This document shows, one piece after another, positions 8,405-33,397 of a stretch of 64,000 nucleotides of DNA (the first letter of the stretch is position 1; every line of letters begins with the position of its first letter). The DNA is from Candidatus Saccharimonadota bacterium (GTDB taxonomy: Bacteria > Patescibacteriota > Saccharimonadia > Saccharimonadales > Saccharimonadaceae). The stretch covers positions 62,001 to 126,000 of the forward strand of contig JAFWIU010000010.1 of assembly GCA_017514765.1 (NCBI GenBank), read 5' to 3'. The position numbers and the translations under genes are program-made. The notes under the pieces were generated by a model. The model had not been told where the DNA came from and searched no databases. It saw only the letters and a program-made list of their open reading frames with translations.

Positions 8405-9037
8405 TTAATTAATAAGTTCAATGTTGTCAATCAGATTCCTGATTACTTTAATGTAATCGTGTTTCAATCTTTTTGCCTTATCATATTTTGCATTTATGGC
8501 TCCGGCTACCATATCGGCTAACTGAATCAAGACATCATTTCTAGAATCAACTAGACGAAAATTAACCATTCGGCGATTATTGTTATTTATGGTTTTGCGA
8601 ATATCGGCCGTAGATTTCTTACGAAAAATTTTGTTACCACTACCATCAAGGCAAACTCGTGCTAATTTCATATCTTTATAATCATCTAACACCTTTTTTA
8701 TAACATAACCATAAAACGATTCGCTTTTCTTTAAAACAGGTTCAATTATTTTACTTTTATCTACAACAAGAGCACGTATTATGAATTCGTGTTTCTTAAT
8801 GGTGCTAAAAAACAATTTCTTTTGCTCATTGTCCGCACGATGGAATTTGAATTCTCTTTCTTGTTTCCAACCAATTTGTTCTTTTAGCATTTTAATGTTA
8901 GCGCTGGTGTATTCGGCACTAATCTTACTATTAAAGATAACGCAGGCTATCACAAAATAACGGCTAGAGCCTCTATTTAACTTAAAGCCCGGATCTCCAG
9001 AATCATCAACAAAGATTAATTGTTCGTATTTTGACAT
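8405..9037 (-). CDS. DUF3800 domain protein
   Basis: 210 residues with the DUF3800 signature at the N-terminus (LIFVDDSGDPGF at about 7-18), a central KFHRADNE block and a C-terminal LVDSRNDVLIQLADMVAGAI (about 161-180). These acidic positions fit the RNase H-like fold proposed for the family; catalytic activity has not been seen here and is inference. Family members are common in mobile and defence neighbourhoods. The gene has a leaderless-type -10, eight bases from ATG, and ends three bases from the small-RNA terminator. It is more AT-rich than flanking housekeeping genes, which hints at acquisition. Confidence 0.85.
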   Translation of the reverse strand: MSKYEQLIFVDDSGDPGFKLNRGSSRYFVIACVIFNSKISAEYTSANIKMLKEQIGWKQEREFKFHRADNEQKKLFFSTIKKHEFIIRALVVDKSKIIEPVLKKSESFYGYVIKKVLDDYKDMKLARVCLDGSGNKIFRKKSTADIRKTINNNNRRMVNFRLVDSRNDVLIQLADMVAGAINAKYDKAKRLKHDYIKVIRNLIDNIELIN

Positions 9038-9045
9038 ATTCTTTC

Positions 9046-9051
9046 ATTATA
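9046..9051 (-). promoter_or_regulatory. -10 element of the DUF3800 gene
   Basis: TATAAT eight bases before the ATG. It lacks the TG extension found elsewhere, and no Shine-Dalgarno sequence is visible. Confidence 0.55.
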
Positions 9052-9134
9052 TGTTATAAGGGATAAAATAGATAGGACTTTTAAAGAACTAAAAGGTAGT
9101 TAACTACCACCTTTTTCATCTTGAAAAGCTCTAC

Positions 9135-9163
9135 TTGACAATTTTTATTTAATATGATATAAT
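9135..9163 (+). promoter_or_regulatory. Full consensus promoter
   Basis: TTGACA (9135-9140), a 17-base spacer ending in TGA, and TATAAT (9158-9163). It drives the gene at 9205. A second TATAAT at 9195-9200 lies only four bases before that ATG. Confidence 0.85.
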
Positions 9164-9204
9164 GAACTACACTAATTATGGAAAGGGGGTAGGCTATAAT
9201 TACC

Positions 9205-9579
9205 ATGTACATTTCAATAAAGGATGCTAGAGACATTCTAGAGAAGAAGGCATACGATTGGGCTATAGGAGAGCAGAAAAGAATGGGCTGTATGGCAGAA
9301 CCGGTTTCGCTTGAATTCGAATCGGATTTTCTGACAGTCGATAGAGATGGTTGTATTATCTCACTTTTCTATGACCAGAAGAGTAACAAGGCGATGCTAA
9401 GGCGCGATTGGCTTGACGATATGGGAATAAAATATAACATTCTCGTAAACTTGGATGAAATAAAGAAAACTGCGCCATTGTCCGTTGCGCATATGTTGGA
9501 AAATGGAATAAAAGTATACCGTTATTATGACGGACCAACTGGAGGCGTAACAAGGAAGATAAATAAAGAATGGAGATAG
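9205..9579 (+). CDS. Hypothetical protein, 124 residues
   Basis: Not recognised. It is a soluble, charged protein without signal peptide or membrane span. It begins MYISIKDARDILEKKAYDWAI, suggesting an N-terminal helix, then alternating beta-like segments, and ends in a Lys/Arg-rich tail with a GPTGGV turn. It has its own consensus promoter and terminator. GGAAAGGGGG at 9179-9188 is far from the ATG (about 16 bases). It sits in the small accessory block between tRNA-Leu and the sigma4-alphaCTD gene. Confidence 0.65.
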   Translation: MYISIKDARDILEKKAYDWAIGEQKRMGCMAEPVSLEFESDFLTVDRDGCIISLFYDQKSNKAMLRRDWLDDMGIKYNILVNLDEIKKTAPLSVAHMLENGIKVYRYYDGPTGGVTRKINKEWR

Positions 9580-9580
9580 C

Positions 9581-9612
9581 AAAAAAGGGACTCATTTAGA
9601 GCCCCTCTTTTT
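9581..9612. terminator. Bidirectional terminator
   Basis: AAAAAAGGGACTC pairs with GAGCCCCTCTTTTT with mismatches. It separates two converging genes. Confidence 0.75.
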
Positions 9613-9619
9613 ATCTATA

Positions 9620-9991
9620 TTACTGCGCCGCAGATTTTCGCCAATTATCAGGCTCATTGCCCCTTGCTTCTTCCGGTGTACTATGTACGAAACCTTGAGA
9701 ATCTATGTATGATTGTTCGGTTGGCTTTTGGCTGAAATGTTCAGCCGTCACTCTACTAGCACCCAAAGACTGGCTTCCAAGTTTCTGTGCACTCATTCGG
9801 GGTGTAGCGTTGTCATCTAGTTCAGACAAAAGCTTATCCAGAAGTGTTTTTACTTCTTCAATTCGAGCTCTGATTTTTTCATTATCAGGTTTTCTTTCCT
9901 GTTCTGATTCAAGTTGCCCTAGTTCTTCAACTGATTGATCAAAGTATTCCTCCCTAACTTCGTCTACCGGCGTTTTATTAATGTTTTCCAT
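9620..9991 (-). CDS. Hypothetical charged coiled-coil protein
   Basis: 123 residues, Glu-rich, with a likely helical coiled coil at about 15-62 (VEELGQLESEQ ... EEVKTLLDKLLSEL) and a polar, probably disordered C-terminal half. No family recognised and no membrane segment. Start chosen at 9991 because AAAAGGAGA lies just upstream and TGATATAAT about 30 bases upstream. It is transcribed toward the gene at 9205 and shares its terminator. Confidence 0.65.
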   Translation of the reverse strand: MENINKTPVDEVREEYFDQSVEELGQLESEQERKPDNEKIRARIEEVKTLLDKLLSELDDNATPRMSAQKLGSQSLGASRVTAEHFSQKPTEQSYIDSQGFVHSTPEEARGNEPDNWRKSAAQ

Positions 9992-10016
9992 TGTATTATC
10001 TCCTTTTATTTTCTAC

Positions 10017-10025
10017 ATTATATCA
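10017..10025 (-). promoter_or_regulatory. Extended -10 promoter, minus strand
   Basis: TGATATAAT upstream of the gene ending at 9620, with a short leader carrying AAAAGGAGA. Confidence 0.7.
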
Positions 10026-10078
10026 CATTTAAAACAAGAGGACTATCCTTGATTTCTTGAAGAAAATGATGCCGTATC

Positions 10079-10107
10079 TTGACAAATTATAGTGTTTGTG
10101 CTATAAT
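10079..10107 (+). promoter_or_regulatory. Full consensus promoter of the sigma4-alphaCTD gene
   Basis: TTGACA (10079-10084), a 17-base spacer ending in TGC, and TATAAT (10102-10107). The predicted start at about 10114 gives a leader of about 170 nt, unusually long for this window. Confidence 0.88.
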
Positions 10108-10114
10108 TAAAGTG

Positions 10115-10151
10115 TTGAGCGAGGAAGCTCAAGTCTAGCACCAAGGAGGTG
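10115..10151 (+). promoter_or_regulatory. Leader hairpins, the second sequestering a ribosome site
   Basis: TTGAGC-GAGGAA-GCTCAA (10115-10132) is followed by CACC-AAGGA-GGTG (10139-10151). The second hairpin holds the AAGGAGGTG Shine-Dalgarno sequence of the leader peptide in its loop and stem. Confidence 0.6.
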
Positions 10152-10157
10152 AGTACA

Positions 10158-10226
10158 TTGAAAATTTTAAGAAAGGAGAATTGTTATTATCTTGGGTTTT
10201 GCCCCTTATTCCCTATCTCATTTTAG
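10158..10226 (+). CDS. Putative 22-residue leader peptide
   Basis: TTG start seven bases after AAGGAGGTG; the reading frame encodes a short peptide beginning KILRKENCYY and ending FPISF, with a TAG stop. Its stop overlaps a hairpin at 10221-10239. The position between a strong promoter and the regulator gene suggests translational coupling or attenuation. The peptide itself is not recognised. Too short to be sure from sequence alone. Confidence 0.5.
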   Translation: MKILRKENCYYLGFCPLFPISF

Positions 10227-10239
10227 GCTACGCCTGAAA
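10221..10239 (+). promoter_or_regulatory. Attenuator-like hairpin at the leader-peptide stop
   Basis: TTTTAGGC-TAC-GCCTGAAA followed by TTTTA. A stalled or terminating ribosome on the leader peptide would cover its left arm. Confidence 0.45.
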
Positions 10240-10284
10240 TTTTACATAGATTCACTTCGAACATAGTTTATGGAGGAAAAACAC

Positions 10285-10965
10285 TTGAAAAAACCATCAA
10301 ACGAAGTATTGAAAATCGAAGGTAGCACAAATAACGTTATTATGGAGGTAGAAAACATGGAAAAAACTCAGAAGTCCCTATTTATCGACATTATGACTCT
10401 GCGCGTTTGGATGCTTTATGCAGCTATTCTTGGCTCATCACCGACAATGAGTCGCGAAGAACTCTTTTCCGGTGATAAACCAGCTGTCAGCAGCGATGAG
10501 TTTGAAAAACTGATAGCGATTATAAACACTTTACCGAAGAATGCACGAGTCGTATTGATCTTGCGTTTTGGTCTTATGGATGGGAAGACTAGAAGTCTCG
10601 AAGACGTTGGCAAGGAGCTTAATATTACTCGTGAACGCGCTAGGCAGCTCGAGGCGAAAGCCCTGAGGATAATGCGAAGCCCCAGTCAGTTATGCAAACT
10701 TCCGGCACTCTTCGGATTTGTTCCCCCAGTGGAACCAAAATCTGGCATTGAAGATGTCAATGCCGATACCGATATCATCAATCTGGGCCTTAGCATTAGG
10801 ACATACAACTGCCTGAAACAATTCGCTCACATTGACACAGTTGGGGAAATCCTTGATTACCCAAAGGAGGATTGGCCGAAAATTAAGAATCTTGGTCACA
10901 AAGCTACTTTGGAAATTCAGGAAAGAATGCGCACTGTTGGCTACCCGGAGTTCAGTGTTGAATAA
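10285..10965 (+). CDS. Sigma-70 region 4 / RNA polymerase alpha-CTD fusion regulator
   Basis: 226 residues from TTG 10285 (GGAGG eight bases upstream); an internal ATG at 10357, with its own GGAGGT site, would give 202. Residues about 79-133 match RpoD region 4: [15 protein letters not shown], then [25 protein letters not shown], the -35-binding helix-turn-helix. Residues about 163-219 match the alpha C-terminal domain: [14 protein letters not shown] and [10 protein letters not shown], keeping the Arg, Asn, Cys, Gly and Lys positions that contact UP-element DNA in E. coli alpha. Sigma region 2 is absent, so it cannot be a complete sigma factor. Inference: it bridges -35/UP DNA and polymerase, or replaces sigma region 4. 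It has a consensus promoter and a structured leader. Confidence 0.85.
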
Positions 10966-11045
10966 TCAGGAGTAGTATATTGACCTGCTCGTTAACCCGT
11001 TTACTCTTCCTTTCTTAAAATAATTGCTCTTATGATTTTAAGAGC

Positions 11046-11077
11046 AAAAAGTCCCCGGCAGCCAGTCGGGGCTTTTT
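11046..11077 (+). terminator. Terminator after the sigma4-alphaCTD gene
   Basis: AAAAAGTCCCCG pairs with CGGGGCTTTTT (one mismatch) and carries a T run. It is preceded by a small GCTCTT/AAGAGC hairpin. Confidence 0.85.
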
Positions 11078-11103
11078 GCTATGGCAAGAGAAAATGTTTT
11101 TAT

Positions 11104-11139
11104 TTTCTGGCGGGGCGGGCGGGGGCGCCCCGCCAGAAA
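11104..11139 (+). repeat. Perfect hairpin with GGCGGGGG loop (copy D)
   Basis: 14-base arms, TTTCTGGCGGGGCG and its exact complement, enclose the eight-base loop GGCGGGGG (11118-11125). The intergene 10966-11368 holds this element, copy E and two terminators, with no gene seen. Confidence 0.88.
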
Positions 11140-11155
11140 GCGACTTCGGATTCAA

Positions 11156-11196
11156 GGATTTTCGCAGGCTGGGCGGGGGGCAGCCTGCGAAAATCC
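11156..11196 (+). repeat. Perfect hairpin with GGCGGGGGG loop (copy E)
   Basis: 16-base arms, GGATTTTCGCAGGCTG and its exact complement, enclose the loop GGCGGGGGG (11172-11180). The loop is nearly identical to copy D, but the stem is different. Confidence 0.88.
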
Positions 11197-11276
11197 GATC
11201 TATTTATCATAAGTAGTAAAATAAGTTCGAGCGGAATTATAAAACCGCACCAAAACTGCACAATTTTCAGTTAGTT

Positions 11277-11296
11277 CGCCCGCAGGGCGATTTTTT
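11277..11296 (+). terminator. Short terminator
   Basis: CGCCC-GCA-GGGCG followed by ATTTTTT. It insulates the next gene from the hairpin region. Confidence 0.7.
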
Positions 11297-11368
11297 ATTC
11301 TGGTTTTTAAGTTTGACTTAAAAGAATGGTGGTAAAATCAAAATATAAACATTTAAATGGAGAACACT

Positions 11369-11638
11369 ATGGAAAATGATATTACAAATGAGAAGAAAGA
11401 TATGGCAAAGGACAAAATAATCCTGTTTGTGATCGGCGTGCTGGTCGGTGCGGTGATTTCGACAGCAGCGTTCTTTGTCTACGTTAAGACTTTAGGAACC
11501 AGTAGTACCACTGGTGGTTCATCGCAACAAATGCCAGGTGGGACACCACCAGAAATGCCAAGTGGCGATAACCCTGGAAATAGCCAGGGCGGTACACCGC
11601 CAGAAATGCCTTCTAATAATTCCAGCAATAATAACTGA
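11369..11638 (+). CDS. Small membrane-anchored protein with PPEMP repeats
   Basis: 89 residues from the ATG at 11369 (GGAG six bases upstream; the ATG at 11357 overlaps that site). A cytoplasmic charged start is followed by one membrane segment at about 17-39 and an outside tail with two GGTPPEMPS repeats, rich in Pro, Gly, Ser and Asn. It is 20 bases ahead of the large beta-helix protein, with which it is probably co-transcribed. No family recognised; a partner or anchor for the next protein is a guess. Confidence 0.65.
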   Translation: MENDITNEKKDMAKDKIILFVIGVLVGAVISTAAFFVYVKTLGTSSTTGGSSQQMPGGTPPEMPSGDNPGNSQGGTPPEMPSNNSSNNN

Positions 11639-32658: not shown

Positions 32659-32740
32659 CATATGCTTGAAAAAAGCAATACTTTAGAGTAAAATGTGGTC
32701 AGATGGAGTGGGTGCTCATTAATAGAAAGGAGGTGGAATA

Positions 32741-33397
32741 ATGTCCCTTGCAGCTGATAACATTATATCTGATTTACACACCAGTATTTCTTGTAATATG
32801 TTCGAGTTCGGTAGAGCGATCGAAATGACAGAGAGGAGATTGTATCTGTACGGAACCATATATAGCATAGACATGGACGAACAGCCGTTGTATTATGATG
32901 CTTCAAAGATGTCTAAGCTGGCAGAGTTTATTTTGGATTATAACCGTATAGACGAAGATATTGCTCCGGAAGAACGAGAGCCGATTCGACTTTATATCAA
33001 TTCACCTGGTGGTGATGTAACCGAAGGATTCGCCTTAATTGACGTGATGGAAGCAAGCAAAACGCCAATTTATACGATTAATCTGGCAGAAGCATGTTCG
33101 ATGGCTTTCTTAATAGGTATAACTGGCACAAAGCGTTTCTCGCTTCCCAGCGCAACCTTCATGATGCACGAGCCGTCTGGGCTCACGGTAGGCAAGTTTA
33201 GCGACATGGCAGATAAAGTTGCGTTTAATCAGCGTTACCAGGAAATGATTATCAAGAATCATGTTATGAAGCATAGTACAATGACGGAACAGAAATACAG
33301 TTCGGTCTCGACCAAGGATTTCTATATGTTATCATGCGATGCGCTGAAATATGGATTCATTGATGAAATTGTAACGGACATTAGCTCCATCTTATAA
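32741..33397 (+). CDS. clpP: ATP-dependent Clp protease proteolytic subunit (ClpP family)
   Basis: 218 residues. Family motifs: IRLYINSPGGDVTEGFALIDVM (about 87-108), the catalytic Ser in AEACSMAFLIG (about 120), the catalytic His in FMMHEPSG (about 143), and Asp in STKDFYMLS, which takes the place of DRDxFM. The sequence around the Ser (ACSMAF for AASMAA) and the 30-residue insertion-like N-terminus are divergent. It would form tetradecamers working with ClpX or ClpC; none is in this window. AAAGGAGGTGG gives a strong ribosome site. Confidence 0.88.
   Translation: MSLAADNIISDLHTSISCNMFEFGRAIEMTERRLYLYGTIYSIDMDEQPLYYDASKMSKLAEFILDYNRIDEDIAPEEREPIRLYINSPGGDVTEGFALIDVMEASKTPIYTINLAEACSMAFLIGITGTKRFSLPSATFMMHEPSGLTVGKFSDMADKVAFNQRYQEMIIKNHVMKHSTMTEQKYSSVSTKDFYMLSCDALKYGFIDEIVTDISSIL

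Follow-up and report, generated by a model that had tools for sequence, protein, structure and literature searches.

We have analysed a window of 64,000 bases (contig C6, 62001–126000) in a genome of 696,678 bases, here called G000, whose assembly is rated 99% complete and gives no match to 16S rRNA. The window carries on its plus strand a regulator gene, the sigma4/alphaCTD gene, which joins a sigma-70 region 4 (PF04545, E 9.2e-12) to an RNA polymerase alpha C-terminal domain (PF03118, E 5.2e-15). The named relatives with this gene are Candidatus Saccharibacteria from the sheep gut. Between promoter and gene runs a leader of about 172 bases (10108–10284), for which an initial annotation had proposed hairpins, a leader peptide and two regulator starts, with autogenous, translational or attenuation control. 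Every part that it named, including the consensus promoter (a 12/12 match), has been found where it was placed. The features are as follows.

10079–10107, plus strand: TTGACA-17-TATAAT promoter whose -10 is extended (TGC), conserved together with the leader; TTGACA at 10079–10084, 17-base spacer, TATAAT at 10102–10107, TG before the -10 box
10115–10132, plus strand: hairpin P1, TTGAGC (10115–10120) with GCTCAA (10127–10132), changed on both sides at all six pairs in the alignment A4
10139–10151, plus strand: hairpin P2, CACC (10139–10142), AAGGA, GGTG (10148–10151), covering SD1
10143–10151, plus strand: first Shine-Dalgarno sequence SD1, AAGGAGGTG, within P2
10153–10168, plus strand: motif M with an A/T stretch, GTACATTGAAAATTTT, a conserved core in the alignments A1 and A4
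10158–10226, plus strand: TTG open reading frame, the proposed leader peptide, 22 codons and TAG, judged not conserved
10169–10178, plus strand: second Shine-Dalgarno sequence SD2, AAGAAAGGAG, inside the TTG frame and able to pair with 10212–10218
10194–10204, plus strand: hairpin P3, GGG...CCC, weak here (GGGC-UUUU-GCCC in relatives)
10221–10239, plus strand: hairpin P4, TTTTAGGC (10221–10228) with GCCTGAAA (10232–10239), recurring in relatives
10240–10252, plus strand: single-stranded motif TTTTACATAGATT after P4, with UUU-N-AYAUA in all 13 rows of the set A5
10272–10287, plus strand: SD3 (GGAGG, 8 bases before the TTG) and start A (TTG 10285)
10344–10359, plus strand: SD4 (GGAGG, 8 bases before the ATG) and start B (ATG 10357)
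10285–10965, plus strand: regulator gene, sigma-70 region 4 followed by the alpha C-terminal domain, with starts at 10285 and 10357

The promoter is 79–93% identical to those of four relatives. With much of its spacer (TTGACAAATTAAAGCnCTTnTGCTATAAT), it recurs before many genes across the genomes of the genus. Downstream of the regulator gene, at 11104–11197, the window holds GC-rich inverted repeats, seen as a minus-strand self-match.

Conservation and spread of the leader

We have searched the leader DNA (query 10070–10370) in 174 genomes of the same genus. Long matches were obtained in G092 (89%), G083 (82%), G121 (81%) and G129 (82%); the matches in G032, G119, G008, G103, G108 and G107 are partial. 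Compared region by region, the leader of the former four is identical at 88.9%, 81.7%, 81.3% and 83.9%, respectively, and the 150 bases upstream of the promoter at 62.4%, 66.1%, 58.5% and 60.8%, i.e., at the level of a shuffled leader (~61%). The coding DNA reaches 85.7% in G092, a close relative, and 69.3%, 66.6% and 65.6% in the other three, and the identity of the regulator protein is 60% in G083 and 43% in G129. By these values, conservation is higher in the leader than in the protein behind it.

In addition, the leader is found before unrelated genes that lack the sigma4/alphaCTD domains, such as the gene of a 368-residue protein in G121 without Pfam or NCBIfam match, which weakens autogenous control. 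That the leader outlasts the protein and precedes unrelated genes suggests a so far undescribed RNA element controlling the making of the protein. When the genus was searched with a profile of 13 sigma4/alphaCTD proteins (A3), a non-RpoD set scored above the background of housekeeping sigma factors. Of the 41 loci from this search (one of them, L136, is RpoD in hindsight), 15 have the leader according to the covariance model R2, whose training set included several of these 15, and it was found in none of 19 other loci (18 RpoD loci plus one family member, L015). By sequence reading, contig C5 of G092 carries two leader copies ~1 kb apart, one preceding a sigma4/alphaCTD gene and the other a gene from the G008 family. 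On a short contig of G008 (C16, locus L151), three sigma4/alphaCTD-like genes are accompanied by a member of an unnamed 172-residue family. In G107:C4 and G130:C3, the sigma4/alphaCTD gene adjoins a membrane pyrophosphatase gene in divergent orientation.

A first covariance model, R1, was derived from A1, a plain MAFFT alignment of 11 leaders picked from the leader-DNA matches. The model searches were run under strict filters, and some of their weak matches are false. At E ≤ 0.05, R1 hit 33 of the 174 genomes in the genus, 11 of them with E ≤ 3.2e-12. In the family (394 genomes, 61 genera), R1 at E ≤ 0.01 matched 25 genomes, which belong to 2 genera; in the order (392 genomes, 156 genera), R2 at E ≤ 0.001 matched 12 genomes, also from 2 genera. 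The leader matches are limited to two genera of one family. Four weak matches inside coding sequence, apparently due to chance (L069, L070, L083, L086), and L080, whose sequence is unlike the leader, were not counted.

The leader has also been compared with known elements. Neither a known riboswitch nor an Rfam leader class was recovered by any curated covariance model; the Rfam scan of 9000–11500, with E up to 5, gave no leader match, and eight loci scanned at gathering score gave tRNA only. A phage, plasmid or viral origin was rejected as well, as viral contigs yielded 0 matches to the exact pattern and none in the protein scan, and neither plasmids nor phages were matched by the leader in blastn.

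Hairpins, ribosome-binding sites and starts

The folding energy of 10109–10284 is ordinary (-37.3 kcal/mol, against -35.1 ± 3.6 for shuffles, z = -0.60), so a single sequence could not decide the matter. The minimum-energy folds of the whole leader are inconsistent across relatives and have therefore been excluded as evidence. It is the conservation together with the covariation that makes the leader more than chance. Within the window, the core pattern ACATTNAAAATTTTAAGAAAGGAG with at most three mismatches occurs once, against 0.01 expected.

The covariation was calculated on A4, a realignment to the covariance model in which 30 loci were given and 27 matches, 25 of them distinct, were retained. 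In these 25 rows, which lean towards structure as they have been fitted to the model, 91.7% of the cells of P1 and P2 are paired, double changes occur at 8 of the 10 pairs (31 double-change cells), none of 500 shuffles reaches any of the measures, and the slid controls give at most 48.5%. For P2 alone, 98.8% of the cells are paired, with double changes at 2 of 4 pairs. In A1, where two rows are one base out of register in P1, 90.4% of the cells are paired and the covariation is not significant (the covariation score is reached by 79 of 500 shuffles, and the paired cells by 107). Pairs kept by changes on both sides, as expected of a structured cis-regulatory leader, have thus been observed in the structure-fitted alignment.

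The initial annotation held that P2 hides SD1. In G108, the loop-adjacent pair of P2 has turned from C-G to U-A, and the Shine-Dalgarno sequence is lost; as this genome keeps the pair, P2 is not kept solely to hide SD1. Since some relatives (G108, G074) have a weak SD1 or none, hiding it cannot be what P2 does in every genome either.

For the 3' half we have used A6, a set of seven closely alignable leaders. Here P3 is 86% paired, a possible helix between SD2 (a site absent from the initial annotation) and the pyrimidine stretch has 95% of its cells paired and no double change, and P4 is paired at 98% and shows one double change. P4 was also followed in A5, whose 13 rows were chosen by eye because P4 is present; in all of them it has 6–10 pairs, with unrelated stems (TTTTAGGC, CCTCAGA, CCTAAAT, CTAGAC), and always lies immediately 5' of UUU-N-AYAUA. 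The observed stem is reached in 0–17 of 500 shuffles per row. P4 is not clearly seen in G309, G141, G089, G165 and G170. Overall, the three hairpins P1, P2 and P4 proposed at the outset are present, the first two covarying and the third recurring, and the hairpin loops vary in both sequence and length.

The two regulator starts, each with its own GGAGG, recur in relatives. Start A is TTG or ATG and, in the long leaders, has a GGAGG before it, whilst start B is ATG after the second Shine-Dalgarno sequence; here an additional in-frame ATG at 10270 overlaps the Shine-Dalgarno sequence. Out of 12 loci picked by eye, 10 were located, G309 and G029 being missed by the search strings, and the translations of these two show in-frame read-through. 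In all 10 segments, A and B are in frame with 0 stops over 10–27 codons, and both other frames contain stops. Besides the sigma4/alphaCTD genes, two further gene families (G121, G008) show the double start, and a single evident start is found in leaders including those of G006, G119, G032, G392, G092:C5, G074, G060 and G103. Leader-level RNA structure, unpaired stretches bearing Shine-Dalgarno sequences, and the double start are conserved.

Explanations of the conserved leader

We consider, with a probability of about 60%, that 10108–10284 acts in cis as a structured 5' leader RNA, travelling as one cassette with the promoter and the double in-frame start. Such a leader would set how often ribosomes arrive at starts A and B, through control of translation initiation by access to the Shine-Dalgarno sequences: P2 would cover SD1, and SD2 could pair with the pyrimidine stretch. 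Motif M and the motif after P4 would be contact sites, and the balance may be shifted by the ribosome, or by a factor reading the unpaired motifs (M before the Shine-Dalgarno sequence, UUUnAYAUAGAUU after P4). Initiation at A would add 10–27 mostly polar residues (24 here), while initiation at B would give the bare protein. The translational control named in the initial annotation fits, with Shine-Dalgarno sequences in or beside helices and no terminator-like site on the plus strand of 10108–10284. Of that interpretation as a whole, the conserved structured leader, the covarying hairpins and the dual start have held, but the leader peptide and attenuation have not.

On the other hand, the conservation might mainly reflect recent transfer of a promoter-leader cassette acquired by accessory genes, with no regulatory RNA fold. 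Unrelated genes behind the same leader, sharp conservation edges, matches in 2 genera only, and a G121 copy near a tyrosine recombinase (PF00589) would all agree with such transfer. However, leaders sharing ~80% identity are no fresh copies, and the compensatory changes in P1 and P2 together with the rebuilt P4 stems require selection on RNA pairing, which leaves this explanation rather unlikely.

A still smaller chance is given to leader-peptide attenuation, in which ribosomes on the TTG peptide would decide the downstream hairpins, halting transcription or freeing the regulator's Shine-Dalgarno sequence. SD1 is well spaced from the TTG, and G000, G092 and G121 each have 22 codons before the stop, with second halves identical in residues and only synonymous changes; these C/T changes are equally explained by the pairing of either C or U with G. 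We have read all three frames in 15 leaders (a 16th, G103, lies outside this set and has TTC). The TTG is kept in 8 of the 15 (G000, G092, G121, G129, G119, G008, G309, G032); the other seven have TTA or TTT, among them G083 (TTA), where the frame is shifted too. Among the eight, the stop comes after 16 codons in G129, 4 in G008, 4 in G309 and 9 in G032, and G119 runs on without a stop in the stretch. Whether in the TTG, ATT or third frame, start, frame and stop are not kept together, so the frame at 10158–10226 exists as annotated, but the 22-residue peptide, as read from these leaders, is not a conserved feature. Peptide attenuation is further not supported because the leader has no terminator-like site on the plus strand, and transcription attenuation was rejected for the same reason; the early termination suggested near 10240 thus finds no support in the sequence. 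Least probable of all is a coding role for the 3' half, which would then specify a small hydrophobic peptide (LPL..Y.ILGYA) in place of a regulatory RNA. Similar stretches are open in G000, G092, G121, G129 and G006; they are open in G083, G119 and G309 as well, where the frame relation differs. Against this reading, the frame relation to upstream starts varies by genome with no common start codon, P4 accounts for the nucleotides without any peptide, and G029, G126 and G092:C5 retain P4 but not the peptide.

Three known systems resemble the cassette. Autogenous ribosomal-protein leaders are RNAs before a nucleic-acid-binding protein, with Shine-Dalgarno sequences in or beside helices and a narrow lineage spread. 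The leader here shares the gene class, the placement of these sequences and the narrow spread, but also precedes unrelated genes and has a nested pair of starts. Riboswitches with translational output likewise have hairpins before the Shine-Dalgarno sequence and no terminator; in contrast, the loops here are variable, which leaves no obvious ligand pocket, and Rfam gives no match. The trp or erm leader-peptide attenuators have a short reading frame with its own Shine-Dalgarno sequence and hairpins after it, as is seen here, but in this leader the frame is not conserved and a terminator is lacking. The best reading is probably a new structured translational-control leader. Searches of one open-access library gave no account of a structured leader, of motif M or of sigma4-alphaCTD fusions in Saccharibacteria, and the riboswitch passages of PMC11665869 concern tools. 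That an RNA element persists while the protein behind it varies or is exchanged points to translation control as a shared regulatory layer in organisms with very small genomes, and the leader offers concrete mutants for testing.

Motif M beyond the leader

Motif M is GYWCHTTNANA before a Shine-Dalgarno sequence, and here it appears as GTACATTGAAA immediately 5' of SD2. A looser form is present upstream of 26 of the 40 family genes evaluated (41 entries, with L108 left out), against 0 of 40 reversed controls. A pattern of motif M, Shine-Dalgarno sequence and start was run over 190 loci (747,147 bases, with redundancy), giving 40 distinct matches and none in the reversed control; its one match within the window lies before clpP at 32741. 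The shorter pattern GTACNTTNANA..GGAG matches in 54 of 60 genomes, with 3 matches in G000 against 0 in its control, though the reversed control also matches in some other genomes.

The membrane pyrophosphatase gene is present in 31 of 60 genomes. Motif M is found before its Shine-Dalgarno sequence too: among 29 upstream stretches, 21 match GYWCHTTNANA, 6 nearly match, and 2 lie inside coding sequence. We tentatively propose that motif M could mark a lineage-specific post-transcriptional regulon of membrane pyrophosphatase, clpP and sigma4/alphaCTD cassettes, read by an RNA-binding factor or a small RNA, of which the leader would be the most elaborate form with its ladder of Shine-Dalgarno sequences to two nested starts. 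The hairpin region upstream of the pyrophosphatase genes of the genus is perhaps a separate leader RNA.

Two minor observations concern these genes. In the window, the clpP-like gene (PF00574) has at 32714–32743 the sequence GCTCATTAATAGAAAGGAGGTGGAATAATG, which fits motif M and a Shine-Dalgarno sequence. Upstream of the PF03030 pyrophosphatase genes of the genus (L161–L189), a GTGGGC-type hairpin, motif M and a Shine-Dalgarno sequence often follow one another.
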